From the NCBI GenBank assembly GCA_025602915.1, contig JAHLJZ010000014.1:368825-432824 (forward strand): a DNA stretch of 64,000 nt. The letters are read 5' to 3'. This document shows, piece after piece, positions 23,595-61,037 of the stretch. Numbering within the stretch: the stretch's first letter is position 1; each line of letters starts with the position of its first letter. The stretch comes from Paraphysoderma sedebokerense (lineage: Eukaryota; Blastocladiomycota; Physodermatomycetes; Physodermatales; Physodermataceae). Both the position numbers and the translations under genes were made by a program. The notes beneath the pieces are model-generated. The model ran no database searches. It was not told where the DNA came from and worked only from the letters and a program-made list of their open reading frames with translations.

Positions 23595-24661
23595 ATGTCA
23601 GAAACGCAGTATATGGTCGAGGTGTGTTGAACCGACAGATTGCGTTGATCTAACACTTTGGTCTTCAATTTTTAACCTGAAATTATTGTCCTATCTTCGT
23701 TTCGTTGTCTTATATCTATTTGTTTCTTCTTAGTATGCCAAGTCCGGCCGCGCTACATGCTCTGTTAAAGATTGTGGTAAAGTTGAAAAGGGAGAAATGA
23801 GGCTGGGTGTACATTTTGAAGCTAGTGGGCGACACATGACCAAATGGAGGTACAGCTGTGCTTATTATTTTGTTACCTCCATTTTCTGAGTCTTAACCGC
23901 TCATTGCGGATCTCTAGGCATTGGAAATGCGTTACAGAGAAAATGCTCGAAGTAAGTCTTCTACTAGTGATTGGGCTTGCCGATTTCCCGATTCACTAAA
24001 TAACCATATGCAGAACATGGGATCAGTCGACAATCTCGGCGGTGTGTCTGATCTACAACCCTCAGATCAGGAAATCGTTCATAAAGCATTCGAAACTGGT
24101 TCTGTTTTAACAACGGAAGAACAAAGAGAGCGAGATGAAAAGGCTGCTGCTAAAAAAGCGGCAGCAAGGGAAAAGAGAAAGGCAGAAAAAGAGGCTAAGA
24201 AGAATACGGAAGAAAAGGCTAATCTAACTTCCGAACAAAGTGCCGAATCTGCCGGTGGCGGCAATGAGAGCGAAGAACCTGAGAAATCAAATAAAGTGGA
24301 TGAAAATGATGAAGCGGCAAAGTCAAAGAAGGGAAAAGGCCGACCGAAGAAAGTAAAGAAAGAAGAAAGTGAAAGTGAAGAAACTGAAAAAGCAACGAGA
24401 GGAGGAGAGACCAAGAGAGCCAAAACTAAGGAAGACAATCAAAAAGATAATGGGGTTGACGAGGATACCGCTAAACCCAAGAAAAGAAGAGGCAGACCCA
24501 AAAAAGACGTCAAGGAAGAGGATTCTGAAAGCTTAGAAGCAGAGAGCGAAGAAACGGAAAAGCCGAGAAAGAAACGGGGTCGTCCAAAGAAAGAAAAAAT
24601 TGAAGGCGAAGCTGAATCAAAGAAGAAAAGAGGTGGCCGCACTAAAAAGGTTGAGGAATAA
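23595..24661 (+). CDS. PARP-type zinc-finger protein with AT-hooks
   Basis: Nuclear DNA-binding protein of 274 residues in four exons (23595-23621, 23734-23849, 23918-23951, 24014-24661). Residues 8-60 match a PARP-type zinc finger: EYAKSGRATC start, GKVEKGEMRLG core, and the HWKC ligand pair. In PARP1 such fingers recognise DNA breaks. The first cysteine pair is CSVKDC, spaced four rather than the usual two. The rest is a charged, helical Glu/Lys-rich tail with three clear AT-hooks (GKGRPKK, RRGRPKK, KRGRPKK) and one degenerate (KRGGRTKK). No PARP catalytic domain is present. It may bind damaged or AT-rich DNA as an adaptor; function is inferred from domains only. The 3' end faces the CTF18 gene about 300 bases away. 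Confidence 0.85.
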
Positions 24662-33917: not shown

Positions 33918-36900
33918 TCAACTAATCTCAACAGGCCTTTTCTTCGTATTTCTCCTCGTTTCGAAATTATCGGTTATAGCATGCAGGAAATCCCTCAAAA
34001 TAGCACCAAAAACGACCAGAATAAAAAAGCCAATTACAGAGAAAATAATTATGATTAACGCGGTACGATACTGCGCAAGTTGGAAATTATCAATTCTAAA
34101 TGGCAAGCCGAACGCCAATACCAGTATACTACAAATAACAGACATCTTCTCCAGCGTGTTAAACATTTGGTGATGGTAAGGGTTATATTTAATATATACC
34201 AGAAGGATAGTAAGAAGGGCTATGATCGTAAGAACAATCTGAAGTCCGGTATATCTGTCATGCCTAATTTAGCAAATACTTCAGTCTCATTTGAAACCAA
34301 ACCAAATAGACTTACCGCGAAAAGAATATACTGATGCTGACAATGGCAAGTTTATGTAGTAACTGTATCACAATGAAGTATTGGTACTGCGGTTTAAAGT
34401 CGCCATCACCTTGCATGATCGTTCGTGATATGTGCCTCCAATTTTCCCATGACGGTCCTCGATACCTCGATTGACAATAAAGAAAAGAAAGCAATCCAAA
34501 ATACAGTGGTATACCAATGGCGTATACTCTAGAGAAATCGAAAAATATTCGTTAGGATAATGTAATGGTTTGGGAGAAACGGTTAAACAGTATGAACGCA
34601 CATCACTGCGGCAACATTAATGGGGAGGTCTCGATACCACCAATCCGTGTAGCACACGAGCGAAACGTCGTCATCTAAAGAATCAATCTTAGTGCCGAAA
34701 TGGACACAGTAGCCGAACTATAAGAATGTGGGACCGACCTAGGTATGCTTTTCCATCGCTTTCGAGAGTACAGTCAAAAAGTGACAACGATTTCGCCGCA
34801 AGATTCACATATAATATTGACAAAGCAATATTAAACAATTTCATCAGGCGCAGTATGAAATTAGTACGAGAGCCAACAGAAGGATTCGCAGGCAATTTTA
34901 GGGGAGTAACTCGCTGACTGCCACCACCTTTTAATCGCATGATACCTTTAACAACCATTAAAATCGCCATACTCCAAATAATAAATACCGCCAAAACTAT
35001 CGGAATAGCCAAAACTATTCGCGTTTTTTGACTGAAATTCAGCTCTGACTTTATGAGACACTCGGGCGATACGAGTTCAACGTTGAAATTGAGAAAGTTC
35101 AGGTAATCTATTATAGCTAGTAACTCAGGTGGCCAATCGAGTCTCACTTTTCGCAGCATCCACACCGTTTGTAGAAAGTTGACTAGAATATTCATGAATG
35201 CGAAGCTAATTAAGAGGGTTAAAAACAATGCTTAGGATCCAATTTTGTCAAGTATAATGAAACCAAAAATTGTTACCTTAACTTATAGATCTTCATTTGT
35301 CGAACGAAATAGAGAGAACCGAATATGATCAGAAACACCGAGATCACAATGATACTCGGCATATAGTTCATTGGTGTGCACTCAAAGCATGCATCACCGA
35401 AACGGTAGTAGTTCGGCTGACATTCGGCGCAGCGTATTCCACGATACCCCCGGCTGCATGCATTTTCTGCAGTACCGGAACAGGCCTCCAACTACAACAG
35501 GTGCGAAAATTAGATATTCAACAGCATTCATTCACGAAGCTGTCAGATTACAACTTACCGGAAAGCATGCCAAAAATGTTGCATTATCCTCGCTTCTCCA
35601 CCAACCATATTGAGGACGAGGGGGGACTTTCCCATCGACACTTTAATGCAATGTCAGATAAGAACCAATACAATTTCAATAAAAGTACAGAATACTACCT
35701 GCAAACAGCTCCTAATTGTTTAAAAGGTTCATGTTGAGTATATACGTAACGCGAGGGCAAGTTTGGGAAAAAATTCAAACAAACCTTGGGGACATGGCTC
35801 GCATATTTCCCCCGGGCCATTTCCAAAGATGTTATTATAAAGACCTGGATACGTTAAAAAAATTTGTAAAATATTATAGCAAATGACATTAAATAATGCT
35901 TTTGTGTACCTGGCGGACAAGAAAAGGTGAAACTGAAGGTACAATTATTTGATGTTGCACCTTCCCCGTCTATTGCGTGTACCGTGAAGTTAGAATACGG
36001 ATACCCTCCACCAGAATGGTTCCCCTCAAAAGTCAATTTAGCATTGTAGAATGAGTCGCCACTATGTAGTTCTCGACCATTCTGGTCCCTTATGATACCT
36101 CGACCGGGTTGAGTAGTCAAGACAAAAGTTAGATTGGAATTGTCGACATCTTCATGCTGGAATTGGAACGAGTGATTGCTTGAAACCCCAACGAGGAATT
36201 CTAGCGGTAAATCAATCTGGGGCTGTAAACATGATATCGATGGTGCATCATTAACCGGTAGCACGGGAAATATAATCTGATATGTCAAATATTCGTTGTT
36301 AATATTATCAGTGTAAGTTACATTGAAGTGTTGATAATCGTCCAGTGTCGAACTGAAGTAATTCAGAGACGGGACATATAAAACTTTATATGGCGGGCCT
36401 CTAACTTCGGAGCCTTCTCCCAGGAGCGTTTTCAACCCGCGTTCGGCGTCAATGAAGTATATCGACCCATTGATACGCAAATTGGTGATTTTCACTGTCA
36501 ATTTGTCGGCAACATCGATGTCAGAGATAACAAATTCAAATGTTGTCTCGGTGTCTTCGTAAACTGTGATATTTAAGCTAGTTGTGTTTAGAAGTGGGAT
36601 ATCTTGAGTCGATGTTAGTTCAACGGTTGTTCTTATCAATATTACAAATGTCAAAAGTTCTCACCATTTATCGGGTTGACAAGAAACAAAATTGTTCCGT
36701 TCACAGTGGAATTGAATTGGCCATCATTAGCCATGAACTGAAATGAATCTGATCCATAGAAATTCGACAAAGGATGATATTTGAGTGTTGTGTTTTGAGT
36801 GAAGTACAACGGAACAGTTGTAATCTGATCCCACGACGTTCCATTCAAACTAAAGAGAGACCCTTTTTGCGGTAAAGACAGTAAAATCACAGTTTGCTCC

Positions 36901-39900
36901 AACTTGGGAGTATCAGGGTCTACAACATCTAGAGTGAAAGAAAATTCGGTATCTTCATCCAATTGATACACCACGTTCTGGGGAATTGGGGGGTCCGGAA
37001 CTGAAATTACATTGATTTTGGCGGTTTCAATACTCGAATCTACCACCGAAAAACATCATTATGCACGCAATTGATTGATAAATATAAAAAAGTTTTAGAT
37101 TCTTACCAGCGTTATAAATATCCCGCGCTTTAAAAGTGAAGGAATCATTTCCGTTAAAATCTTTGAACGGAATATACAAAACTCGAAACGACGAATGCGT
37201 CACAGGTATCGAACCAAATATGGTATCTATCATTGGCCCTCTTTCCCCGGAATTGGTCAACTGATAGAGTGACCCATTCCCAGGATTTTGAAGGATATAC
37301 ATTGTCACGAAATCGCCCGTGTCGGTATCGTACCCTTCAAATTGAAGTATCACAGATTGTTCTTCGAATGTTGAGATATTTAACGGGAAAGCGATAGGTG
37401 GATCATTCAAGATTCCGCTTCTAAATACAGTTTCTGTCGTGAAATCGCTAGATTGATTTCCGATGGTGACTGTGACGTTCAACGTTGCGGGTACAGGGAG
37501 ATCGACTCCGGCGAAAACGCTGGTTGGTTGAAGATACATTAATCAACGATTATGAAATGACTAAAACGTTGATGTTGTTTTTCTTACCATCGGATACTCA
37601 AATGGGACACCCAGGTGACATTAGGACAGGTGTAATTTAGTAAAGTGCTGACGTCTTGGAACATTACCGCCCGCGGTGCAGACGCTCCCCCGAAATTTGA
37701 TCCATCAATGAAAACAGTCTAAGTATATAAAGTTTAGTAAACCATAAGCGAAACAAAAAAATGGTAACCATCAATGACGCACTGGATTCTTGGAAATACT
37801 AGTGGGAGGATTGATACTCCCGATCACTGGTTTCCTGTACGAAATCACCCCAGAGCCGCTTTGCCCGTCGATCGTAACATTGACGGTAATGTTTGTGTTA
37901 TAACCCTCTGGAGCGAGACATTGCAGATGACTATCATTATAGAGGAGTACAGTAGAACATGACCCAAAATCGCCGAAGCTGACGGTGATATTCGATGAGA
38001 CGCAAGGACTAGAGCTACACGGTCCGAAATTGAAACCCCTGGTGTGGTGTAGGATAGGAAAGGTTACATTATCATTTTGAATGGTCAATAGATCTTCATG
38101 CGACACCTACTTGATTGAGATGGTGGAACCGCCTGTAGGAATCGTAGCCGGACTGATTTCTGATATTACAGGCGGATCATATGATAAACTCTTGATTTCG
38201 GTGCTATCCAGATAATTCCCATTAGACAACACAACCGCCAAATTTCTACCGGTGCCTATTTGAATTCATGTTAGAATGCGGCTCTGCGCAATTTTCACAT
38301 ATAAATACATGGATTGTGCCAAATGTACTTACCTGGTGGAGCACGACAAGTTACCGTGGAGGAATTGACATGCTGTAAATTCGTACACGGATTTCCTCCA
38401 ACGAAAACGAATACATGGTTATCTTCCAGAAGAATATTTGATCCCGTCAATGTAATATTGTATCCAGCTGTATTGAGTAGACCCACGTTAGGATTCGCTG
38501 AACGCAGCATCAACTCATTATTATGAATGAGCACTCACTAGCTGGTCCAGAGCTTGGTTGGACATTCAACAAAACGGGTTTGGATAAATAGTACAAATTT
38601 TTGACACTGGCGCTTGGTTTTTGATTGATATAATAAAATTCCACTAATAAATCGAATGGTCCTACAATTAATATCAAGTTAGACGTATCTTGACAAATAA
38701 GCCATATGATTCAGTTTCTTACCCCCAACACCGGACGGGATGGTCGCCGATAGAATGGATCCCGTCCATTTAACACCCGTACAATTTTGTTGATTCAAAG
38801 AAACAATCGGGGTACCAGACGTTGCACCAGTTGGGACGATCGAGAATGTCATATTCACGGTTTCCCCGGATTGAACGTAACCGGAAAACGTTGAACCAAG
38901 GGAAGATATTTTGAAATATTGATATCGGGCGGCAAAACCTCTTCTAACTGATGTTGTGGATACTGGATTACTAAATGAACCATCGGTACTACCGACTACC
39001 ACGACCAAATTTTCGTCACCGCTTGGCACAAAAATTTTGGTGATGTTATCTTGTAATACAGTTGACACGATAAATTTTGATTCGAGTTGAAGAGAAGAAG
39101 TGTACCGAAAAACCGCGACATCTCTTTGACCATATCCAATCACCGGAGTGGGTGGTGTCATCATCGCAGTAATGATAGAACCAGTATTCGATATTACCAT
39201 TTCATACGCCTCAGGTGGACGTAATTGTATGGAATACGGCAACTGTGCCACTTCATTCGGGACTGCCGCGTGAGTAGAATTTTTTTTGTGAAGGACTACA
39301 GTCGTGTTGTCACTACTATTGTGATGCAAATAATACGTGATGGCTCCATCTAACGTCTCCACTACTCTGGGGTTAAAATTTAAATTCACCGGGGTAGAGG
39401 GTACCGTATAAGTTTTGTAGACTGTGAAATTACTCATCCAGTATTCCGTCACCGTTTGATTCGTCGTCCAAACACAAATGATTGGAGACTGATGACAATT
39501 AAATTGGATTGATTGTGCACCTTGGGTTGTACTAGTAATGTTGACGATGGGTACCAACGTATGAGTTAATTTTGCGATGAAATACCCCGACTTGACAGAC
39601 CGTCGGGGATCGTTGTAGTGACAGACGTAGATGCTTGTTGCGTCAAATTCGATTTTAACGCGACTGTTTTCAGTTTTCAATTTTCATGGACGTTCAAAAA
39701 AGAGTGAATTACACGAATTTCGTTAAACTATTTTCACGACACTCAATTTAATAAATTTATACATACGGGTAAGGTATTTTTGCGTTAAAATAGGATTGGT
39801 CGTTATATATGTACTTGTTTATTTCAGTTGTGATATCATAAGAATTAAAACGCCAAATAGAAAGAAAACTAAAAGTTTGGACTGGACATTTCCTGTTGTA

Positions 39901-41052: not shown

Positions 41053-43526
41053 TTACTCCATTTTTGATTTTCCCCGGTTCCCAATCAGTGCTGCACTCTT
41101 TCGATTTTCTTTCCAACTTTTCAATTCTCTTATCACAGAGGCCAACAATGTGACACCAACGGGTACAAAAAACGGCATGTAAACTGCTATTTTGTGTTCA
41201 TCTGGAAAATAAAGCATCGAGATGATACTTTCGTCAAAGAATGCAGTTTCAGCTAAATGTATCGCGACGGCGGAATGACGGAGGGCGGGTTTGAGTGAAT
41301 TAGAGGAAGATAAATTTGATACGGAGGCTTTCAGGAATTGAAAACTTTGTTGGAATTTTTCGGAAACAGAGTCTTGGATGATCATGTTGGGGAGGGAGTG
41401 GAAGGTGGTGGTGAGTGAGAGTAACGTGGAGTGAGTGTGGATGAGATTGAGGTAGGTTTTGGTGAGGCTGTAAATGGAGGATTCGAGGTATGTGAGTCCT
41501 GTTTGTGGATTGGGAAGGAAATGAAGGGTCGTTTTCTGTGGAGATTGGAATATCATTCACACGCTATTAGGAAGGGCAAGAGAATTGTTGTTGAGTACTC
41601 CTGAAATTAGGTCCCTACCTTTGTTTCAACAATTCCTTGTAGCCCTTCGGGTATTCCCACTAACCCTCGCAACTGGGTCAACCAAACATCCGTTGCCTTC
41701 ATCAACTCTCCCAGTCGCAACTTGACCTGTTTCCGGCCTTCTTCCACATTATAAATTACCACGCCGCCCCATCGAGGCACTGAAAAAGCATTGGTTTCCA
41801 GAACGTCGCCTCGAGAATTTAATATTTTAAGTGGGGTATATTGAGCCGATGGAACGTATAGGAGGAAATTAAGTTGGGTGTAATTCGACAATGCAGACAC
41901 TAATAGCAAGAAGAGTGACAATGGAGAAAGGTAAGTTATAATAAATTCACACTCAAAAGTAGAATTGAATGTTAAATTCAAGGGGATATCCAATGTCGTT
42001 ACCTAAATTCCACTCTGCCGAATTCACAAAATGCGGTAAATCTTCACTCGTAAGGTAATGGTATCCTGTTTCTCCACTCTTTCCACCGTCCTCTGTCAAA
42101 TTTTTGAACTTGGGTGGGTTGGTTAGAGTAGTGTAATATTGTATCTATAGGATGTTGATGGTTCGTGCCAAAACAAAAGAGCTCTATTGTTAGTAGATGA
42201 TGATGAAGAAAGGGGGGCCTAACGTAGAAATGCTACCTGAGAATTCACTTTAAACTCAGCGACATCGGCTAAAGAATTCAAAAACGGGATGATGGAATCT
42301 GCACAATGGAGGGTACATTCAGCAATCGGTCAACGAAAAATATGGAAGAGATTGTGAAGTTTTAGAAGGAAAAACACAAACATTCGAGAGCACCTTGAAT
42401 GTTCCATTCTAGGTTGTGATTTTTCGGGTCCGCATTTAACAGTGAAAACGTGATTTCGTAACCTGGTGAGTACTTTGCGGTTCGAATCGATTGAATATCG
42501 TTCTATTTTTTGGGTTCCACAGTCAGGTCAGTTAAGGGAGGTTGGTTCGAGGGTAAACAAGGAAAAGAACACGCAATCGTACATTTCGTTCGTTCTCGGA
42601 AGATGATATTAACAGTCGTTCCATCTGCTTGGAAAAGATATAGACCATGGCATCCGTAACATGAGTTAATATCGTGCCTATGATAGTTGAAGGAAATGGT
42701 TAAGATTTGATGCGATGTGGATATGAGCGGTGAAGTAGTTGAATTCTTGTAAAAGGAGCGCTCAACATAGAACTTTAACTACTAGTGATACTCGAAAATA
42801 AAGAGTATTTTGAAAAATAAAATACATACTCTTGCTGCCCCAAACAACCATTCCCTTGCCCTTTGAGACTAGCACATCCGGATTTCCAAAGTCATCCTTG
42901 TCTTTGCTGAATTTTTCATTATCGGGAAACAGATACAAATCGTACTCTAATCCCGGTTCCGGTTGTTCTGCGTCGAGGGCCAGGGTGTCGGGCAGATCAA
43001 ACTTATCTGAGAGTTGAGAAACAGATGTGCTAAAAGAGAGTTGGACATTGTATTTGTTTTCTAGGTTTTTTACGTTTTGCAGAATTTGTGATGAGACGAC
43101 TGATGGCAAATTAGAGAATTTAGATTTGAGATCTGAAAATTCAGCATGGTGGTGAAGGTGGAGATGGATCGGGATGTTTAGATGCTATATATATTCCGGG
43201 TAGAGAGGAGTTTAGTAGAGACATGTGTTGGTCTGTGGACAGATCAAAAAGTTGGAGGAGGACACGTCCCTTGCGTGTTTTGATTTTATCGGGGTTGATG
43301 GCATACTTACATTGAGGGCATGGTAGTGTTGCAGCTGCTGGAAGGGGAGTGGGGCCTTGTAGACTGAGAGGGAGTACCACCAGACGGGGAGGCCGAGGAG
43401 GAGGGAGAGGATGTAGGAGAGGAGGATGCGTCTGCGAGCGGGGTCTACAGGATGGGAGAGTTGGGGGTGTGTGGGTGAGTGCAGTGGGGAGTGAGTCGAG
43501 GGCGGACGGGGTGTACCTTGTGCCAT
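41053..43526 (-). CDS. PIGS: GPI transamidase subunit PIG-S (Gpi17)
   Basis: Subunit of the ER GPI-transamidase complex that attaches GPI anchors. The N-terminal helix [18 protein letters not shown] is the first membrane anchor. The lumenal core matches the family at [44 protein letters not shown], and [16 protein letters not shown]. The C-terminal part has [21 protein letters not shown] and a second helix, [16 protein letters not shown], with a basic tail. Several introns of about 60-90 bases separate these, including 41536-41618. The first exon ends at 43311. I could not join it cleanly in phase to the segment beginning at about 43132 ([13 protein letters not shown]), so a short exon there is unresolved. 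The start at 43526 is the best upstream ATG. Confidence 0.88.
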
Positions 43527-43757
43527 GGATCGTGCAGAGTAGTGAGTGCAGAGTAGTGTATGTAGAGTAGTGGGCAGTGTAGAGTAATGGGCAGAGTAGC
43601 GTAGTGAGCGTAGCGTGGTGGAGTGACAGAGTGCGTCTTGCCAGTGGGCTAAAAATAGACGCTTGCTGGCTGGCTGGCTGCGGTGAGCAATTGGCAGGGA
43701 CAGGGGAATGCCAGAACAATGGAATGCCATTTGCACTTTTGAATTCACTCTCTTGCT

Positions 43758-43799
43758 GCAACCTGCCACTCCCTCTTTGCAACCTGCCACTCCCTCTTT
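43758..43799. repeat. Exact 21-base tandem duplication
   Basis: Two adjacent identical copies of a 21-base unit starting GCAACCTGCCAC, at 43758-43778 and 43779-43799, 70 bases upstream of the M50B ATG. Confidence 0.9.
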
Positions 43800-43810
43800 G
43801 CACTCATCTC

Positions 43811-43860
43811 CACCCTTGCACTCATCTCTACTCTTACTACTCCACCCTTGCACTCATCTC
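43811..43860. repeat. Two copies of an 18-base direct repeat
   Basis: CACCCTTGCACTCATCTC occurs at 43811-43828 and again at 43843-43860, ending 9 bases before the M50B start codon. A further CACTCATCTC lies at 43801-43810. Confidence 0.88.
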
Positions 43861-43869
43861 CACTCTACG

Positions 43870-45008
43870 ATGCCACCCTCCGTCCTCCCCCCACCTCATC
43901 CCGACCGTCACCCCCTCTTCGCTGCACAGTCCGCCTCCATCTTCAACTCCTCAGACCCCTCCCAGCTCTCGCAAAACATCCTCTACAAACTCAGAAACCC
44001 CACACAGGAACAAATCACAACCTTCTACATCATCGCCGCATACGCCGTCGCCATCCTCTTCCTATGGAACCTCCCCTACCTCAAAAACATCCTCATGCCC
44101 TTCAAACTCGTCACTGTCGCCCTGCATGTATGTTGTAGCCCATCCTCTTTTCGCAATCTTGACTCTCTCTCTAGCATACACTGACTCCATTCCCTCCTAT
44201 TCCAGGAATTCGGCCACGCTTTAGGTAATTTTCTTTTCACTCTTGGGCCTGTGCTTAACCACATCGCAACAAATCTGCTAAACTCACCTATTCCTCAACC
44301 TCAGCTGGAAAATGTACCGGAGCGAAAATACAGTCAATAGTCGTCAACCCAGACGAAGGAGGCTGCACCACCATGAGAGGTGGCAGAGCCTGTTGTACAC
44401 TCCCCGCTGGCTATATCGGTACTATTTTCGCTGATTTCATCACTCTACTCGCATTAATGCACAATCCCTCATTCAATCACTCAATACTCATTGCCCTCTT
44501 CCCATTTGCTAGGTTCAAACACTTTTGGCGCCCTCCTCATCTTTGCAGGGTTTGATTCCACCGCTTCAAAAGTTGCCTCCGTGATCCTTGGATTATGTTT
44601 ACTGGTTGTCCTGTACTGGGCTAAAAACTGGCTGACAAGAGGCCTCACCATCTTCTTTGGTGGTCTCATTGTCTTGTTTTGGTTCTACCCCGCCAATGCC
44701 GCCGGGTTGAGGTACTTTGTCCTGTTTATGGGCGTGATGTCTTGTCTCTACTCTCTTTGGGATATTGTCGAAGACTTGGTCGTTAGAAAAGTCCATTCCA
44801 GTGATGCGAGTCGATTTGCAGAAGGTAAGAATTATCTTGTACTCGTAATTTTGTACTTAGCAAAGTGATTCACAATCATACGGTCTTTCCCTTTCGTCGT
44901 ATGCCAGAATTTGGATGCTTCCCCGCCCAAGTCTGGGGTGTCATTTGGTTCCTCATTTCACTCATCTTCTTGGGTGCCGCTATCGTACTCTCTCTCATTA
45001 TATGGTAA
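43870..45008 (+). CDS. M50B-like integral membrane metalloprotease-type protein
   Basis: Five exons (43870-44127, 44206-44224, 44305-44418, 44513-44824, 44908-45008) give 267 residues. It matches the peptidase M50B-like family of fungal and plant membrane proteins. The zinc motif HEFGHALAGK is split: the first His ends exon 1, EFGHAL is a 19-base exon, and the next exon continues AGKCTG. Conserved VVNPDEGGCTTM and LPAGYIGSNTFG follow, and the rest is about seven hydrophobic helices with an aspartate-containing SLWDIVEDLV segment. HExxH implies metal-dependent proteolysis within the membrane, but activity of this family is not established. The promoter is shared with PIG-S. Confidence 0.88.
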
Positions 45009-45491
45009 AGGGCTACCGTCAGAACGCCTACAGTCAACAACACTTTTTTTGTATAAAACCATGCAATAGGTAGACCGTAAATTCGTAATAACTTTAATAT
45101 CTATTTCAATTTAAAAAAGACACAATGTAAATTAAAGAGTCATAATTGTTTGAGTTTTTTTATAATTATTATTTAACTCGAGTCGGTGATGTACTCGCTG
45201 TGCACATCAATATAGATTCCACAGCTACATTGATTACAATCTAACTTGATTACTCAGAATTGTTGCAAAAATCTAAATCATTGAGCCTACATGCGGATAC
45301 TCATACGCAGTATCTTCAAAGCTTTCCTGAATTGAAATTCGCAACCAAGATTTTTCCATACCATATAAGTGTGGATTCGTCTGGCGCGATCATCGAACCA
45401 CGACCGCGACTTTCAAAATTCAGAGCACTTTTAATACACAACCTTTTTTAGACAGACCGTCCCAACCTCTTGATCCTAAAGAATCCCAAAA
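45009..45491. other. Intergenic spacer
   Basis: About 480 AT-rich bases between the M50B gene and BET5. The frame at 45260-45451 has no recognisable content. Confidence 0.4.
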
Positions 45492-46249
45492 ATGACGATA
45501 TTCTCCCTCCACATATTCGATCGACACTGTCACTGCATCTTTTACCAATCCTACACTCCCCTCCCCTCACAACCCACCGCCGCAGAGAAATCACTCCCGA
45601 ATTTACCAACCACAACGACCACCGAGAACCCTAATACCACCAACAACGAGTCTTTAAGTGTTCCCGGGGAAAATGTAGGTGGGATGGTGGGTGGCAAGGG
45701 CACAGGAATTGGGTGGGAGGAAGAAGCAAAGTTGGTGTATGGGGTTGTGTTTTCGTTGAGGAATTTTGTAAACAAGTTGAGTTTGAAGTCTGGGTATGTT
45801 TCAAGGACTTTTATTTCAAACTCTAAACGATTCGCATTCAGGACGGATATAAGCAAGATAGAATGATGCTGGTTGGTTCATAATGACTTTATTTAAAACT
45901 AAAATCGACTTTTATATTCACGATGGGTAGTGTCGACTCGCCTTTCCACGCTTACAAAACAAGTCACTATAAACTCCACTACTACGAAACCGCCACCTCC
46001 CTTAAATTCGTTCTCATGACTACCCCCGATTTCGATTCCAAAATGACCCGAGAAATTCTGAAAACTCTGTATAGAGACCACTATGTCGAATTCGTGGCTA
46101 AAAATCCGTTGCAAATGGTCACGACGGGTCCGCCTTTGGTGCCTATTAAAAAGAAGAAAGGGATGGAAGAAAAAGTGGCGACGATTGCGAATGAGTTGTT
46201 TAAGAAGGAGGTGAGGAGGTATTTGAAGAGTTTGCCGGGATTTGAGTAA
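45492..46249 (+). CDS. BET5: TRAPP complex subunit BET5/TRAPPC1
   Basis: Longin-fold core subunit of the TRAPP tether and Rab1/Ypt1 exchange factor in ER-Golgi traffic. Two exons (45492-45793, 45931-46249) give 206 residues. The N-terminal strand MTIFSLHIFDRHCHCIFYQ and the second half (LVYGVVFSLRNFVNKLS, SHYKLHYYETATSLKFV, HYVEFVAKNPL) match the family closely. Between the two halves of the longin domain sits an insertion of about 50 residues rich in Pro, Thr, Asn and Gly (residues about 25-72); the animal protein is about 145 residues. The 137-base intron is longer than the local norm. Confidence 0.93.
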
Positions 46250-46596
46250 GTTGGTTGCAGTTTGCGTGAGTGAGGTCTTGGAAGGATTGGGATTTACAAA
46301 TTGTAAAATGACGGAGAGAAATGTACTCGATTTTAAAACACTGATGAAATTTTGACATCAGGCTTTTGTGTATATAAATGAATAAATACTACAACCATAC
46401 AAAACTACAATCACACTCTTCCAGCTTCAATTTAAAACACCACACGCACCGCACTTCAGTCGTTCCACTTGCATTCATCCGTGGCAACTTCCCTCGCCCC
46501 AGTCTTTCTAAATCTCAACCACCACCCGCCGAACTCCTTCTCCGCCATCCTCCTCTATTCTCCCCGTCATTACTATAGTTAATATAAACCCAAGAC
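46250..46596. other. Short intergenic spacer BET5-YKT6
   Basis: About 350 bases, carrying the end of BET5 and the YKT6 promoter. The 66-codon frame at 46378-46578 shows no domain. Confidence 0.4.
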
Positions 46597-47750
46597 ATGA
46601 AAATATTCTGTATCGCTGTTCTCTCCCCCGGAAACCCCGCCAACATTATCGCCGTTGAACATGAACTTTCTACGTTTGGGTATTTCCAGAAATCAAGGTA
46701 ACGAACCGAACCCCTCCCAACTTGGTATTTTTAACAAACCACACAATCATTTGGATATACTCTAACAATATAAACGAATTACTGTTTTTAATTTGATAAT
46801 TTGAATTGGCTATATGATATCGATATTTAAATCGGTTCAACCCACTGTATTCGAAAACTGCGGGTTTACTTTCTAACCCTGACATCGCTATCCACTCCAT
46901 TCACCATACTCCTATTCCCCTTTCGTTCTTGACCTCTCCAAACCTGAAAATACAAAATAAACTGATACTATGTGTGTGAATGGTTGTTGTGGCACTTTTG
47001 GTGTTGTTTTTATGGATGGGGGTGTCGGTTGGGATGGGTAGTGCACAGGAGTTTATGAATTTTACGTCTAAAACTTTAGTGGAGAGGACTAGAGTTGGAC
47101 AAAGGCAGGGGTTGGAACAAGATAGTATGTGTTGGTTTCTTTTCTTTTGATGTTTCTGATGCTGAAGGGTTGTCTTTACTTGTGGTTGGATGTTATGAAT
47201 TCTAATGTTTGATGGTTTTTACGAATGTTAGATTACCTCCTCAATGCTTACGTCGCTCCCAACAATATCGCCGGTGTAGTGATTACAGATAAAGAGTACC
47301 CCCAGCGGGTATCTTACTCGTTGATATCAAAAGTACTGGAAGATTTTACGGCAAAAGTTCCACCGTCTCAATGGACTGTTTCTGCCTCGGCATCGGCGGT
47401 ACCGAATAGTACCAAGTTTCCGGAATTAAAAGAGTATTTGAATAAATATCAGGATCCGAATAAAGCGGATAGTATAGCTAAAGTACAAAAAGAACTGGAC
47501 GAGACGAAAATTGTTTTGGTGTGTTACTTTCTCTGATATCTTTTATACACCTCCATCTTTATTTTCTCATCATCATTTTCTGTTTTTTTTTTGTTTTGGT
47601 TTCACCGGTTAGCACAAAACAATCAACTCTGTTCTTGAACGAGGCGAAAAATTAGACGATTTAGTAGCTAAATCAGATCAATTAAGTACCGCTTCTAAAA
47701 CATTTTACAAAACAGCTCAAAAAACAAATAGTTGTTGTCGACTCATGTAG
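46597..47750 (+). CDS. YKT6: R-SNARE YKT6
   Basis: Lipid-anchored R-SNARE acting at Golgi, vacuole and autophagosome fusion. Four exons (46597-46697, 47042-47124, 47232-47518, 47613-47750) give 202 residues, the usual length. The longin domain begins [13 protein letters not shown] and includes [17 protein letters not shown] and [14 protein letters not shown]. The SNARE motif runs from [13 protein letters not shown] through [20 protein letters not shown]; the zero-layer residue is the Arg in LERGEKL. The C-terminus, SCCRLM, is the expected tandem cysteine for palmitoylation plus CaaX farnesylation. The first intron (46698-47041) is 344 bases, about five times the local norm. Confidence 0.96.
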
Positions 47751-48789: not shown

Positions 48790-50540
48790 ATGAAACTAAA
48801 TAGTTCAAAATTACCTACAACGGTGTTGGTTCTACTTTTATTATCCCATTTCTATATTCCGTTCGTTCAGACCCAATCATGTGGTCAAATTAGAATTAGA
48901 AAAGAAATTCGTACGTTGACGGTGGATGAACGAACTGCGTTATCCAGAGGGTTGAGAAGGTTGTATGAGAATGGGGTTATTAGGAGGTACAATGATATGC
49001 ATAATCAGATGAGGGATGTAGCGCATGGGTATGTTATTTTGGAGTTTATCTTTGGTCTTTTATTTTTATTTTTATTTTCATTATCATTTTTTTTGGAGGT
49101 TGAACCGAGTAAATGGTTGGTTGTTAACTGTGTTTATTGCTGGTTTGATATTATGAACTTTGTAGAACTCCGGGATTCTTATCTAGACATCGTGTCATGG
49201 TAAAAATGTTTGAAGATGAATTAATGAGTGTGAGTGGAGGTGCACTCACCGGGTTACCCTATTGGTGAGTATTTTATTCTATAATAATTTCTTATGGTAT
49301 TTTCTCTACCGTGAGTAATCTTAACATTTGCGTTTGAATGATTTTGTCAGGGACCCAACGATAGAAGCAGGAAACCCAAGGGGTTCTGTCGTATTGACAC
49401 CTGATTATATGGGTACTGCCAATCCTGGGTGTATTCAAGATGGACCAGCCGCAGGATGGATGATGAATGATGGACGATGTGTTGAACGAGGTAATTTCCG
49501 ATATTGGCATTTCTTTTCGAAGTCTCCGACTAATAGTTTAATTTACCTGTCGGCAGGATTCAGAGGTGGTACTTGGGTTTCTACAACTGTTGTTCTAGCA
49601 TCCATTGCCGGACTTCGTAGCTACACTCGTTTAAATACGGTCTTAGAGGGAGGATTTCACTGTTAGTTTTTTTTTTTATTTCTTTTTTCTGAAAGGGTGA
49701 TTGATGATAAAGCAATGGCTAACGCGAAATTACTTTGGCGGTTTAGCGGTTGTTCATAATGCAATTGGTGGAAATATGCCTGATAGTACAAGAAGTCCAT
49801 GGGATCCCTTATTCTGGATGTTACATGGAGGTGTAGATTATTATTATGCAGTCTGGGAGAACAATGGAAATTATGGATCTTATGATGGTGAAAAACTGTT
49901 GACCTAAGAAACATTCATTGACTCTCGCAATTAACGGATTGATTTTATTTACTCCCTAGGACCGGCATTTTCGATGGGTAACTTTGGACATACCGATTCA
50001 GCCGACTATCAAAATCGTCTTTGCTATCGATACGATCGTCTAAATCAAAACACCGTCCCATCATCGTCACAAAATCCTACCAGTCCTTCCACTCCGTCTG
50101 CAACTTCTGGAATCACCTCCCCAACCGGCTCTCCTTTCACCTCTACGACTACAGCAACTTCGACTAGAAATACTGCTAGTCCGACTCCCACTCCTGGCGC
50201 TCCTAACTCTGGAGACATCGTCATCCCGGATTTTAAAGATATTCCCGAGAGTGTCTGGCAATCATTCAATATTCCTCGTGAAAATATTGCTCAAATAGAG
50301 ACTGCATACAAAGCGATTGCTCTCTACTTGAATACTTTAAAGGCGCAAGGAAGACAGTTACCTTCACTTGAAACGCTCAGAAATTTCAGGTTGCCGAGAA
50401 ATGTGGATGAACTTATCAATGGCAACGCTAAATCCACAGAGCAAGAGAAAAGTACAGGTGTTTCCATTGGTCCGAATATTCTTGGCTCGGTTCTGGTTGG
50501 GTTGTCGTTTGCTGGCGCAGTCGCTCTGTTGCCTTTATAA
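48790..50540 (+). CDS. Secreted tyrosinase with GPI-like tail
   Basis: Binuclear copper phenol oxidase, expected to act outside the cell in pigment or wall cross-linking. Six exons (48790-49028, 49166-49264, 49351-49490, 49557-49661, 49747-49887, 49960-50540) give 434 residues. A signal peptide (LPTTVLVLLLLSHFYIPFVQT) comes first. CuA histidines lie in NDMHNQ, VAHGTPG and LSRHRV. CuB histidines lie in GGFHSVVHNAIGG (the H-x3-H pair is created by splicing over 49662-49746) and FWMLHGGVD. All six are present. YDRL is the usual end of the core. A Ser/Thr/Pro linker, a helical region and a C-terminal hydrophobic stretch (ILGSVLVGLSFAGAVALLPL) suggest GPI anchoring. The HG in place of the usual HH after FWML is unusual. 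Confidence 0.9.
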
Positions 50541-55266: not shown

Positions 55267-55873
55267 GGAATAATACTTTTGTATCATATGCTTGCTCCAC
55301 CTTGCTATTTTGGCCCAGAATCTGGAAAAATACATCTACCATTGACTGGAAGAATTGGTAACGGACATTTGCAATACGCAGTGTCTTGATACTTAGTATG
55401 ATTGAATAATATTTACCGTTTACGCCGTCTGCATCGCATTACGGCGATTGCTATAGGCGTAGCTGATTTGAGACAAACTTGTTATTTCAAAATATGTCGT
55501 TTGGATTTGTGCCGTTAGTGAATCAACTTGGTTACATTGCTATATACAAGCTTAAAGGCCAATTAAAATTTCAAAACCTGTGGATTTAATGTCCATAATA
55601 AGGGTGTCTGCAAGCTGTGCGAATATGTCTGCATTGGCACACCTTCGACTGAGAATAGTATACATAAGTGCTTACTTATGATGTATTCATGATGAACTAT
55701 TTACAAAATATTGATGGTGATCAAATGCACTACGACTATTTACAAGTGTGAAATTGATCGCGCGCCTTCTACATGTAGGTGCATATAAACTGAATCAAGA
55801 GGAATCGTAAAAATTCATGTAGTCTTGAACCAATCCACTGCGCGTGTCTAAAAAGGATGGCCGCACAAATCCA
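55267..55873. other. Convergent intergenic region
   Basis: About 600 AT-rich bases between the stops of the CCDC6-like and SpeD-SpeE genes. No gene or repeat seen. Confidence 0.4.
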
Positions 55874-57545
55874 TTACTTCTTTTGGGCAAGCCAAAATAA
55901 TGATTTCCCTCCAAATGAGGGCACGTATTCGCTCCACTGCCGCAGGCCATTAAGGCCTATCAATTTCCAGTCTTTCGCCAAAGTGTCGAAAAATTCAGAA
56001 TACTCTTCAACCTCAGTATTCATCTGTTGAACAACATATCCACCAGGTGTCAAAAGTGAGTGGACATCTTGATAAAATTGCGTGGTGTAGAGAACCTTTG
56101 ACGATTCGATAGTGTGGTCCGTGCAGTCAATGATAACAAGACTTGTCGACGCTGCTGTCGGATGTTCACGTAACCATTTACCGGCATCAGCAAACGTCCA
56201 ATGTACCCTCGAGTCAGTGAATGAGTCGTGGACACCCTCTGGTCGAAAATATTTTTGAGTGATTTCGGCAACTTTTTGGTCGATATCAACGATTTGAATT
56301 TGGTGGATTCTTGACTCATAATGATCAAGTAGATACGATGCGATCCAGCCATCTCCTCCACCGACAATTGTGATATTGAGAGGACCAGCAGGATTTTCCA
56401 AGGAAGACATGGCCTTATTAACCATCTCCCTCGTGTAGATTGCATTATCGGATTCGCAGAATTGAACTACTCGATCAAGCAACATGCATCGTCCCCAATT
56501 CTGGGTATCTACTACTTCAATTCTTTGGTACTGACTGCGCTCATCGACAAGAACCTAAAACAAAAAAAGAGATAAAGTATATTCTTAGAAAAAATATTTG
56601 AGCAGAAAAAGATGGAGAATGTGACTTACCTCTGCATTTCGTAGCAGATAACAGTCGTCTTCATCGTCGTCGGCGTTCACACAAATGTTGGTTGTATTTA
56701 ATACCTCTGACAACGCACTATCGGACTCAATGACGGTCGCATTCTGAAGCTCGGCAGGAATTCCTGACTCTTGCGAAGTTTCCGAAAGAGTATTGTGAGA
56801 TTGTTCTCGAACAACATGTTGAGCTCCCCGCTCGAGAAATGTTTGATGGGAGCGGGTGGGCTTAAGTAATTTCTTAAACTGATCAACGATGTACTCTGGC
56901 CTTCCTTTTCCGCAGGTGTAAACGTCTGAAATGATAGCGGTTTTCGTTAGAAGCAATTTACTAGAACTAACTCTAGTCAAGTGGCAACCTACCAAGAGCA
57001 ACGAAGCCATGTTCTGGCCAGGAATGTAATGAGACGTGGGATTCGGAGAGCAAAAAGACAGCAGTAATCCCCCCACATTCGAAATGATGGCTAAAATTCA
57101 GTTGAAGTGAATAACTGCGCCATGTAAGAACGCGGAGGCACTGGAATTTACCTTGAATAGTCGAGTAATGTTAGGTCGGCTTTAGCGATGTAATTGGATA
57201 TTGACCCCAGAACGGATGAAGACTCTAGCATTTCAATGTTTTCTCGAGATACACCATATAAGTCCACCATATAGCTGAAGATATCAAGAAGTTAGTTGAG
57301 AACCCTAAAAGTGAGTTTTTGCATCAAACTTACTGTCGGCCAAGAGGGGAGTGAACTGAATCTTCAGCAGATACGTCGCACTTCAACCATGGTCTCTTGC
57401 TCCAACGGTTGTTTGCTTCAAAAGTGGCAGTCTTAAGGAGATTGCGAATGTTTATTTCGTAAAGGAGGGATGTCAGTAGGATAATCACCGCAAGGACCAA
57501 GGCTCGGCGTGAGATCGGAGTGTTGGAGGTATCCTTGGTGGTCAT
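55874..57545 (-). CDS. Membrane-anchored AdoMet decarboxylase (SpeD)-spermidine synthase (SpeE) fusion
   Basis: Predicted bifunctional polyamine enzyme: AdoMet to decarboxylated AdoMet, then aminopropyl transfer to putrescine. Five exons (57545-57334, 57274-57152, 57090-56993, 56925-56630, 56554-55874) give 469 residues. Residues 15-30 (ALVLAVIILLTSLLYE) form a membrane anchor. Residues about 68-175 match the small bacterial SpeD family, not eukaryotic AMD1: GRHYMVDLYGV, then FLLSESHVSLHSWPEHGFVA. The autocleavage pair is Glu128-Ser129; His134 (Ser+5) and Cys149 (Ser+20, in DVYTCG) complete the catalytic set. A variable acidic linker follows. Residues about 244-469 are SpeE: SQYQRIEV, GGGDGW at 308-313, VDID, and IIDCTDH near the catalytic Asp. 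Domain order and catalytic residues are visible; dual activity is inferred. Transfer from bacteria is likely for the SpeD part. Confidence 0.9.
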
Positions 57546-58660
57546 GGTTGCACTTGGTTAAGAATTCCAGTTCGATTCCACTTGAGTACACCAGAGGGGA
57601 GCTGCAGTATATAAAAGGACCAAGCACAACGCAATTGGTATTCATGCTGAGGTATAATAGTCATTATTTTTGCTGTTTATGTATGCTTGTCTAATTCTTT
57701 GTGTGCTTAATTGCTATTGTCGCCGAGCGCGCCTCCATCCACTTGGCGCTGAAGTCATTATGTAAATGTGCCGCCTCGCAATACCGGTAGTGGCCCGATG
57801 AAGAGCTAAAAGCTGAAATGTGGATGGTGGTTTCTTAATTGTATTGTAATTAATTAAAAAGCATTTGAATTCGGGCTTTTGGTCGTCCCACGTTCAATTT
57901 CAGTTCGTCAGAGATCCAGCTTGTTTCCGACAAGAATGTATTTTGCTCTTTCATGACTTTGTATAACGTGGAAACTCTATGCATACACCTGGCTTGTACT
58001 GCAGATTCTTCCCTTGCTCCACTGGACTTACACTGCATGTTCAATGGACAAATAAACAGAGTATATTTTCGACAGTCCGAGACTCTAATATAATTTTTTG
58101 GCCACCACTTTAATATACCTTTTCGTCTTCAGTGCGATTGAGTATTGACACGCCTTTTCTGAGCTCGGCTAACTCAAATATTCACAAAAACGTAGCACGG
58201 AATGTATGATATAATTGATCTTATGATTTACTATTGATCTTTTTACGTCTTCCTGCAAATAAGAACAACCGAACGTCGCCATGATCGAATACGTTTTCAG
58301 TTGGCGTTTGCAGCAATGAGACTTCAATCGTTTGCTATTAGTAGGTGCCTCAATATTTTTTCCTCAAATTTTCGGCTCAATAAAAGAACAATGCCAATTT
58401 CGGCTTTTTGTCGGCTTTGGGGTTCCGATCCGAGGAAGCTGTTTTTGGGAACAGTTGCATACAGAGCGCGTGGAGGTCATTGGATACACATTGTGCAAGG
58501 TCGACGGTGACAAGCCTCAGTCGATGTTACGCTTCCTCCAGTGCATATTGCCGACAAATGGACAGCCACGCCTCGTAATATTGACCAACTCTCATATACA
58601 ATATATCATCGGCGAACCGGTTGCCTTCATCATCACCCATTCCTTCGTTTTAAGTTTCGA
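57546..58660. other. Divergent promoter region of the two SpeD/SpeE-type genes
   Basis: About 1.1 kb between two head-to-head ATGs. A TATATAAAAGG lies at 57608-57618, 63 bases from the minus-strand start. Overlapping frames at 58301-58510 and 58332-58706 on the plus strand run into the next gene and could contain an upstream exon, but I see no domain or clean splice. Confidence 0.5.
57608..57618. promoter_or_regulatory. TATA-like element in the divergent promoter
   Basis: TATATAAAAGG is a strong TATA match on the plus strand; read on the minus strand it is about 63 bases before the SpeD-SpeE ATG. Orientation does not decide which gene it serves. Confidence 0.3.
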
Positions 58661-61037
58661 ATGGCCCCGAAAAAACAGAAGTCGGCCTTCTCTGTCGCCG
58701 CCGTAGCCTGGGCCTGTGGGGCATTGGTCGGTGCAGTTGGCCTTTCAGCAATGTTTAATTTGAATATCCTCAGCCTCAGCATATTTCCAGAGACCTTATC
58801 TCGGCTAATATCCAATGTATGTTGTGTTTTCAGAAGGCTGCGTTTCCCACTGTCTATCCTAAGCTAATTTTGACCTGTTTTCACAACGGCGTTTCGTAGG
58901 CTGACTTATCCTCTCGAATTGCAACCAAGCAGCATTCTCTTGTAACCAGTATTGAAAGAGATACAACTTACGGGGATTGTCTCGTTCTCCATGGAGGACA
59001 TCGAGTTTGTGAAAAGGATCGAGCTTTATGGAGCGAATCTCTAATACACCCTGCTCTTTTGTTTCGTACGTTCATATCAACACTTATCGTTGCCATTAGC
59101 TACAAGATTAATAAAGTGACTTATTCAAACACTCTTAACTCTAAATTACTTAGACAACGCCCCTCGGTCGGTTCTTATTCTCGGTTCCTTGAATGCCCCA
59201 TTAGTGAGGCAAACTATTCGCCATTTCCTTGTTTCGACTGTTGTTTGGGTACAAAATGACGATAACCTCGACTCATTTGCACAGAGCAATATTGCATCTA
59301 TTTATCACTATGAAGACATTCCGCCGCGTGTCCAGATAGTGCATTCTTCTATTTTCGATTATCTTACAAAGGATCGAGAGAAATTTGATATTATCATTTT
59401 CGATAACGTAATGTTCAACCTTGTCAACGATGGCTCCGGATTGTCAGTCGATAGCCGGTACACATTTCTAAGAAGTAAATTAAACGACGGGGGTGTGGTA
59501 GCAACTCGTTCTGGACCGGCAGCAGGAACAATGATAGATCACTACAAAGTCTTACAGGGAAACTTCAAGCGCGTTTATACATACACCCAATTCGTTCCAT
59601 CTACTGGGGTCCTCTGGGGGTAAAATCATCACGTCGTAAATAATTCAAGCTTGTGAGTCATTTTTAACATATCTTTGTTTTGTCATTTTTCACAGTCTCC
59701 ACATCATGACCAATAGCGATTTGCACCACAGTCCCAGCATGTTATCACCCTCGTATGTGGACGCTTTGGTAAAACGCAGAATTGTAGACGGCACGGAGGA
59801 TTTGGAACATTATGATGGTATTTCCCACCTGAACATGTTTGCTCTTCCTAAATGGTTTCGGCAAACTATATCAACTGCAGAAAGTTCAGCGGATGTCATA
59901 AAGAAGCGGAAAGCTGAAGATTTCGCTGAAAACTACGCCCCTTCAGAAGCTGCCGCTGATCTTCGTATCCCCGTTAATATTCCAGAAGGTTCGACAATAA
60001 CCAGAGAGTACTACGGTTGTGACGATGCCGATCTCGAGTCTGTTGAGACTTTACGGAGTATTATTCAAGAAGGATTGGAATATGCACATGCTCATATAAT
60101 CCGCATGGACGTTGTCACTTCAGAAAACATTACCCATACGGCTGTCGAAATAGATAAAGATAAAACTATCGACTCTTCGGTGAATCGAACGCGAATAAGA
60201 GTTGGTACTTTGCCCACAGCTGATTCTGTCCAATCGACACCGGAAGTGATGATAACAGTTACGCTTTCAAAAGGACATTTAACTGTTCGCACATACCCGG
60301 AGGTGGAATACATGTCGGCCGAACTCACATCGTACGATAGCAATATGTCAGCAGAGGAGATCCTCGGCTTTCTTGGTGAGGAAGTAGAGGCCAAACGAAC
60401 TTATGGCAGTACGATATATCGCGGCAGCTCTACAACGTCACACCCGAATGAACCTCATATTGACTTCTGGTATCACGGTACAGATTATTTTATGTCTCAT
60501 AAAGTATCTGTCCGAGAGAGTCCAACAGCTGGTAAAGGTCAATTTGCCAACGAAGAAATCAAAGCTGGCGAAGTTATTTTCAAGGGCCCGATTGAAGCGT
60601 ACTTGCGACATGATTCTGAGATGCAAAAAATGCCTCACTGGCGACATGCTTTCATCGATCATATGGGAGAACAGGCCGAAGAAGATATATGGGTCGCTCC
60701 TCCAATGTATGATGACGACGACTCGTATTACACAAATCACAATTGTGACCCCAATTTATGGTACACTGGTTACGACATCATGGTTGCTCGACGTAATATT
60801 AAGGTTGGCGAAGAATTAACGTTCGATTACTCCACAGTTGATGCCGAACCTGAGAGTGCGTTAAAATGTAAATGCGGGTCTCCTAAATGCAGGAAAACAG
60901 TGACAGGGAATGATTGGATGTTGCCTGAACTACAAGAAGCTTACGGATTGGAACATTTTTGGCCTCATATCCAAAGAAAAATATTGAAGCTACGTCAGCT
61001 TCGTTCGTTATCTAATCAATCCGCACCAATCCTGTAG
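58661..61037 (+). CDS. Pseudo-SpeE / pseudo-SpeD / SET-domain fusion protein
   Basis: Four exons (58661-58816, 58900-59065, 59154-59619, 59696-61037) give 709 residues. A hydrophobic anchor comes first (VAAVAWACGALVGAVGLSAMF). Residues about 55-270 follow the spermidine synthase pattern (TTYGDCLVLHGGHRVCEKD, then IHPALLFHNAPRSVLILG). The AdoMet motif GGGDG is GSLNA (118-122), and the DxxD-type catalytic motif is FDNVMF. Residues about 360-505 follow the bacterial SpeD pattern (YYGCDDADLES, VTLSKGHLTVRTYPE). There the cleavage Ser is Gly456, the catalytic His is Arg461 and the Cys is Tyr476. Residues about 530-670 are a SET domain with GKGQFANEEIKAGEVIF, NHNCDPN, EELTFDYS and a post-SET CKCGSPKC. 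Both polyamine domains look catalytically dead; the SET domain looks intact. Confidence 0.88.

Follow-up and report, generated by a model that had tools for sequence, protein, structure and literature searches.

A divergent pair of polyamine-type fusion genes, one apparently active and the other with both polyamine sites dead and a SET domain, in a probably fungal genome

A 64,000-nucleotide stretch of DNA (contig JAHLJZ010000014.1, positions 368,825 to 432,824; the whole of it is called the window here) apparently pairs a predicted active fusion of S-adenosylmethionine (AdoMet) decarboxylase (AdoMetDC; SpeD) and aminopropyltransferase (APT), named gene B, with gene A, whose protein has the rearranged order APT-AdoMetDC-SET and has lost the two polyamine active sites. 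Gene A lies at 58661-61037 on the plus strand and gene B at 55874-57545 on the minus strand. Their start codons are separated by a computed gap of 1115 bp (57546-58660), a candidate shared regulatory region. An initial annotation of the locus treated gene A and overlooked gene B, which is its key neighbour. Fusions of this kind have already been described in diatoms, and the new aspect is probably the host, which is likely not a diatom.

Results

It was found that gene A has four exons (58661-58816, 58900-59065, 59154-59619, and 59696-61037) encoding 709 amino acids, according to a stop-free spliced translation and Pfam. The introns are 83, 88, and 76 nt in length, are all of the GT-AG type, and are in phase, so that the coding model of the initial annotation was right in outline. 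Its three-domain fusion is also borne out, as Pfam found Spermine_synth, AdoMet_dc, and SET, each over its curated cut-off. Pfam and residue checks give the order as a hydrophobic N-terminus, a dead APT, a dead SpeD, and SET. Exon 4 (1342 bp) encodes the C-terminus of the APT together with the entire SpeD-like region and the entire SET domain; residue 262.67 marks the end of exon 3, and homology with the solved structure 6BQ2 continues to residue 321. Because these three parts lie in one exon, the fusion is independent of splice guesses, which largely meets the earlier worry that the SET exon might belong to a separate transcript. Introns 2 (after residue 107.33) and 3 interrupt the APT homology, and therefore exon 1, which carries the hydrophobic N-terminus, is the one exon whose joining is not backed by homology. 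The open stretch of exon 4 is 465 codons long, for which the chance at the local base composition is about 5e-13. Residues 10-28 (58688-58744, plus strand) have a Kyte-Doolittle mean of 1.98 over 19 residues and, by hydropathy alone, may be a putative signal peptide or type II anchor.

The APT-like domain of gene A covers about residues 61-321 (58924-59870, plus strand) and has a degenerate active site, as delimited by the 6BQ2 match and a conserved-site census. Pfam Spermine_synth matched residues 97-258 at 1.6e-10. Among solved structures the closest was the thermospermine synthase 6BQ2 (3.5e-20, residues 74-321), and the spermidine synthase 2O05 gave a weaker match (4.8e-11). Thus, by its structural matches, the domain is of the thermospermine-synthase type, which corrects the spermidine synthase of the initial annotation. 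Although a thermospermine synthase of the ACL5 type (Chloroflexota-like) is its best solved match, the GGGEG motif and other conserved residues of that enzyme are missing from gene A.

The census used 40 prokaryotic SpeE relatives taken from 413 open reading frames (ORFs) of 80 prokaryotic speD loci. In place of GGG(E/D)G, gene A has GSLNA at residues 118-122 (59183-59197, plus strand; position checked), with Ser119, Leu120, and Ala122 where the loop glycines stand in 39/40, 40/40, and 38/40 relatives. Ser173 replaces an Asp found in 36/40, and Arg226 replaces a Gln found in 40/40. In the DxxD pair, Asp191 is kept (40/40) and the second Asp (37/40) has become Asn196; Asp143 (40/40) is retained as well. 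Gene A thus lacks both the GGG(D/E)G loop and the full DxxD pair expected of an active APT. Donor binding is doubtful because the GGGxG loop and the conserved Asp at Ser173 have been lost. The top matches of this domain in the census set were a Dehalococcoidia enzyme (114.1 bits) and an Elusimicrobiota enzyme (106.0 bits), the next one scoring 77.8 bits. In the APT tree, gene A stands beside Chloroflexota (Dehalococcoidia)/Elusimicrobiota enzymes with weak support (78/81) and a branch length of 4.1.

The SpeD-like domain spans about residues 360-511 (59985-60440, plus strand), with an insertion between its halves, according to Pfam, a hidden Markov model (HMM), alignment, and Foldseek. Pfam AdoMet_dc matched at 1.1e-9, the better of two stretches being residues 445-506. 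The HMM was made from 80 prokaryotic SpeDs, out of at least 587 confirmed matches to scan patterns that partly demand the catalytic Ser/His/Cys trio. It gave gene A 27.4 bits over colinear halves (360-402 and 450-511), and the top score among 2000 shuffled versions was 8.0 bits. In the alignments, the pyruvoyl Ser, the His at +5, and the Cys at +20 correspond to Gly456 (60273-60275), Arg461 (60288-60290), and Tyr476 (60333-60335; plus strand, codons checked). This trio is present in 80/80 prokaryotic SpeDs, as the scan patterns partly demand, and is absent from gene A. Together with GSLNA, these replacements agree with the earlier claim that both polyamine active sites are lost, and the SpeD is likewise predicted, from the change of Ser to Gly456, to be unable to self-process.

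An AlphaFold model of this domain was made with 32 of the 80 SpeD loci as alignment rows, and 102 of its 179 residues have a predicted local distance difference test (pLDDT) score of at least 90. Thermotoga maritima SpeD was the top Foldseek match (E 1.8e-7, 19% identity, root-mean-square deviation 5.3), with a template modelling score of 0.77-0.78 by target and 0.52 by query; human spermine synthase (3c6k) was a weak match (E 0.014). This structural match to SpeD is partly circular because the rows were SpeDs, and it speaks for compatibility and is not independent proof. Other comparisons count against the assignment. A single-sequence AlphaFold model of exon 4 (446 residues, SpeD and SET) failed, its pLDDT of 30.7 making it useless. 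phmmer pairs SKGHLTVRTYPE of gene A with the active-site strand of T. maritima SpeD, a match that is weak alone (E 0.01); hhalign against five SpeDs gave a probability of 5% and E 0.0079 with a thin profile; and a six-sequence MAFFT alignment has a gap at the Cys column of gene A. As far as these comparisons go, the SpeD-like part is remote but real.

The SET domain occupies residues 542-641 and is followed by the post-SET motif CKCGSPKC (together 60531-60890, plus strand; Pfam, solved-structure match, and motif positions). Pfam SET matched residues 542-641 at 7.6e-12. The motifs NHNCDPN (610), EELTFDY (635), and CKCGSPKC (654) are all present, in accordance with the initial annotation, and by these motifs the domain looks intact as a predicted methyltransferase. 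Its closest solved relative is histone-lysine N-methyltransferase 2A (1.8e-10). It also matches BurB (2.1e-7), a SET methionine S-methyltransferase. BurB shares the SET domain with gene A but is a bacterial S-methyltransferase with a chain of 180 residues, unfused to polyamine enzymes.

Gene B has five exons (57545-57334, 57274-57152, 57090-56993, 56925-56630, and 56554-55874, minus strand), whose spliced translation of 469 amino acids consists of a hydrophobic N-terminus (hydropathy 2.26), an intact SpeD, and an APT. Pfam found AdoMet_dc (2.3e-25), Spermine_synth (4.4e-19), and Spermine_synt_N (2.9e-8), and no SET. The SpeD (residues 71-178; 56825-57335, minus strand; Pfam, HMM, and alignment) scored 119.2 bits with the 80-SpeD HMM and keeps Ser129, His134, and Cys149, the Ser, His at +5, and Cys at +20 of class 1b SpeD. 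The APT (residues 243-469; 55874-56632, minus strand; Pfam and census) keeps GGGDG at 308-312, Asp335, Asp366, Asp386, Asp389, Gln253, and Gln420, and so has both the GGG(D/E)G loop and the DxxD pair (Asp386 and Asp389). Gene B is apparently a predicted active AdoMetDC-APT fusion.

Among the 80 SpeDs kept out of at least 587 confirmed matches, the closest to that of gene B has 42% identity and the phyla are scattered; for these reasons the sampled prokaryotes were rejected as its source. The matches to the SpeD of gene B include 32 plasmid records. In the APT tree, gene B has a branch length of 3.5 and its placement lacks resolution. Scans with six exact 8-residue patterns, which find close relatives only, confirmed none of 19 pattern matches to gene A in prokaryote genome contigs, gave one unconfirmed pattern match to exon 4 of gene A in viral contigs, and found no relatives of gene B in viral contigs. 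As a separate observation, SpeD lies in a stop-to-stop frame longer than 260 amino acids at 5/80 prokaryotic loci (L016, L034, L044, L073, and L081, the last with 936 amino acids), and these are possible fusions.

The domain order of gene A (APT-SpeD) is the reverse of that of gene B (SpeD-APT). Both genes look at home in the window. The G+C content at third codon positions (GC3) is 0.411 for gene A and 0.449 for gene B, inside the range of 12 reference ORFs (0.344-0.507). Against the pooled references, codon usage correlates at 0.66 for gene A and 0.38 for gene B, each reference in turn giving 0.09-0.53 when left out, and nothing stands out in the tetranucleotides of 55301-60900 (z -0.13). 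GC3, codon usage, and tetranucleotides fit the window and thus speak against recent acquisition or a chimeric assembly, against the latter with less force, since 3 kb lie beyond gene A. The most deviant tetranucleotide composition among the sliding windows is at 41301-47600 (z 2.62), and short tandem repeats occur inside that segment at 43532-43863. Scans of the whole window for tRNA genes and for Rfam families at the gathering cut-off found nothing.

What kind of organism does the window come from? A bromodomain ORF has polybromo-1 as its best match, followed by Rsc1 and Rsc4. There are also a zf-PARP gene (2.1e-18, splice read from the DNA), a tyrosinase gene (3.8e-18 in Pfam when its pieces are joined), PIG-S and DUF2046 genes, and an RFC1-like piece under its cut-off, together with the potassium-channel pieces and the receptor-like gene described below. 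That such gene families point to fungi is in part general knowledge. By its gene content, the window looks opisthokont, and its source is rather probably a zoosporic fungus or something closely related to one; an early-diverging fungus is plausible.

Some of the neighbouring genes have further features. The zf-PARP protein (23734-24658, plus strand) continues into repeated GRPKK (AT-hook-like) segments. The product of the tyrosinase gene (48790-50537, plus strand) is rich in Ser, Thr, and Pro over one stretch and ends in a hydrophobic tail at its C-terminus, which makes it look like a glycosylphosphatidylinositol-anchored protein. Pieces of a BK/Slo-type potassium channel lie at 11383-12715 (plus strand; BK_channel_a 1.5e-18, Slo-like RCK 2.9e-7), and pieces of a gene with bacterial-type Ig-like domains (Big_9, Ig_SibA) at 35857-37542 (minus strand). 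A receptor-like gene at 19660-22600 (plus strand) has a Peripla_BP_6-like ORF (2.3e-7, just below the cut-off) followed by hydrophobic ORFs and resembles a class C G-protein-coupled receptor. Glutamate-type receptors with periplasmic-binding-like domains are reported from Chytridiomycota as well as Blastocladiomycota, and the diatom Thalassiosira pseudonana has members of the family too (PMC3251606).

Discussion

The initial annotation knew of no described SpeE-SpeD-SET protein, which overlooks the AdoMetDC-APT fusions of diatoms, some with a SET/histone-methyltransferase-type domain, that are thought to produce N-methylated long-chain polyamines (PMC3820600, PMC12029483). Genes A and B both have the trait of that family, a bacterial-type APT and AdoMetDC in one polypeptide; the SET domain of some members is found in gene A and not in gene B. 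The diatom fusions of Michael 2011 (FEBS Lett 585:2627) reportedly include signal peptides, a rearranged order, and, in some, a catalytically dead AdoMetDC, and these alternatively configured fusions with a dead AdoMetDC would closely match gene A. An N-terminal targeting segment may be present in both genes, whose N-termini are hydrophobic as judged by hydropathy. In gene A the APT is dead besides the AdoMetDC, which sets it apart from the diatom fusions, as does a host that is likely to be something other than a diatom.

Among diatoms, Nitzschia inconspicua has 32 recorded fusions that contain an APT domain, and a recent survey calls for work on such proteins of diatoms (PMC12803844). In Entomoneis vertebralis, another diatom, a fusion of spermidine synthase and SAM decarboxylase goes up under added aluminium, a response that the authors link to silicification (PMC12533330). 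Diatom-specific SET methyltransferases (Nemoto 2020, via PMC11151724 and PMC11554505) likewise have a SET domain, and their proposed targets are cell-wall proteins or long-chain polyamines. In a silica-scaled haptophyte that makes long-chain polyamines, the modified polyamine genes were not found in the transcriptome, and a possible diatom specificity of these genes is suggested (PMC4742977). In the open-licence literature on chytrids or such fusions, partly examined, no SET/APT fusion is described outside diatoms. Almost all of eight uncultured early-diverging fungi are reported to be without an ordinary spermidine synthase and AdoMet decarboxylase (PMC6784888).

Other known systems resemble one gene or the other. 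Bacterial AdoMetDC-APT fusions are like gene B in domain order and intact active sites, but gene B differs by its introns and its hydrophobic N-terminus, and the available parts of the two reports describe no link of the bacterial fusions to a SET protein (PMC12803844, PMC6356823). Human spermine synthase also joins a degenerate class-1b AdoMetDC domain, which is a required dimer scaffold, to an APT; in contrast to gene A, it has an N-terminal AdoMetDC and an active APT, and a SET domain is not mentioned for it (PMC12803844). Gene A, with the reversed order and a dead APT, and gene B, with an intact AdoMetDC, are both unlike this human type.

Genes A and B may be a divergent pair that forms one membrane-anchored secretory polyamine-modifying module, as proposed for diatom long-chain polyamines. 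I hold this reading tentatively, at slightly less than an even chance, because of the active and dead architectures, the divergent adjacency over 1115 bp, and the hydrophobic N-terminus in both genes. Both proteins would be luminal in the secretory pathway. Gene B would make decarboxylated AdoMet and attach aminopropyl groups to either an amine or the lysine of a protein. In gene A, the dead APT and SpeD would serve as docking or dimerisation platforms for the gene B protein or for a polyamine chain, while its SET domain would N-methylate amines of the gene B product or of a carrier protein. It is known that a SET enzyme, BurB, can methylate a small molecule (PMC12542666), and precedents for dead AdoMetDC domains as structural partners are human spermine synthase (PMC12803844) and the trypanosome prozyme (PMC6221367). 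The topology, the complex formation, and the substrate of such a module are what I infer from the two genes.

Several points weigh against this module. Its activity, localisation, and expression are predicted, and its topology is read from hydropathy. The YHExxxH stretch of gene B, which bears on the acceptor, has diverged (Thr284, Arg285, and Asn289). The solved structures nearest to the SET domain of gene A are the histone methyltransferases 2A/2B and ASH1L. Between the APTs of the two genes there is only a distant likeness (BLASTP 2e-4 over 60 residues), and gene A can therefore not be a mere duplicate of gene B. To my knowledge, silica-forming polyamines have no known use in a fungus. The diatom fusions were likened to genes A and B by published description. 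Moreover, AdoMetDC-APT fusions also occur in bacteria and are the ancestors of animal spermine synthase (PMC12803844); since bacterial fusions like gene B exist, gene B alone is no pointer to diatoms.

The initial annotation had proposed that the polyamine part couples protein methylation to the state of decarboxylated AdoMet or polyamines. On this reading, the dead APT and SpeD of gene A would sense these compounds and so control a methyltransferase that acts on proteins, possibly on histones. The histone-methyltransferase likeness of the SET domain would suit such a role, and the dead domains keep their folds, Asp143 and Asp191 being retained. Donor binding is nevertheless doubtful with the GGGxG loop and the Asp at Ser173 lost. 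Moreover, the hydrophobic N-terminal segment in gene A and its neighbour gene B suggests membrane or secretory targeting, and gene B suggests a biosynthetic or modifying role. The coupling is thus unsupported, and I regard the sensor as unlikely.

Slightly less probable is a prozyme-like role, in which the dead SpeD/APT of gene A heterodimerises with gene B and activates or stabilises it, methylation being a side function. Active and dead versions adjoin at this locus, and dead AdoMetDCs have precedents in human spermine synthase (PMC12803844) and in the trypanosome prozyme, where the dead enzyme is a heterodimer activator (PMC6221367). However, the SET motifs of gene A are intact, which makes it improbable that SET is just carried along. 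The opposite domain orders, the distant likeness of the two APTs, and the position of the gene A APT beside Chloroflexota/Elusimicrobiota enzymes in the tree, weakly supported and set against an unplaced gene B, also speak against it.

Could gene A be a decaying or relic fusion in which only SET matters and the APT/SpeD part is drifting? The many catalytic residues gone from both domains and the very long APT branch would fit. In contrast, 709 codons are open with phase-consistent introns, the SpeD core scores far over the 2000 shuffles, and the codon usage is like that of the neighbouring ORFs. I consider this improbable, a little more so than the prozyme-like role.

The least likely alternative, to which I give a small chance, is that the window is from a diatom and holds an ordinary member of the diatom family, as the reported AdoMetDC-APT-SET fusions (PMC3820600, PMC12029483) and the suggested diatom specificity of the modified genes (PMC4742977) would allow; it is opposed, short of proof since no diatom sequences entered the comparison, by the opisthokont-like neighbours (the polybromo-1/Rsc1/Rsc4-type bromodomain, zf-PARP, tyrosinase, PIG-S, and DUF2046) and by the periplasmic-binding-like receptor ORF, of a kind known in chytrids and Blastocladiomycota but also in T. 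pseudonana (PMC3251606).

Returning to the secretory module, it is an evenly balanced proposal that a diatom-type set, an active AdoMetDC-APT with a dead-APT/dead-AdoMetDC/SET protein, is resident in the genome of a zoosporic fungus or of something closely related. There, in the secretory pathway and without silica, it would make or N-methylate molecules modified with polyamines. It may have moved between diatoms and fungi, for example through parasitism, or it may be older and wider than diatoms. If this is true, finding such a pair at home in a genome that is probably fungal would separate the polyamine machinery from silica and would offer a second lineage for probing the roles of the dead domains and SET. 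Since active and dead versions adjoin here, the question of what the dead domains do becomes tractable.
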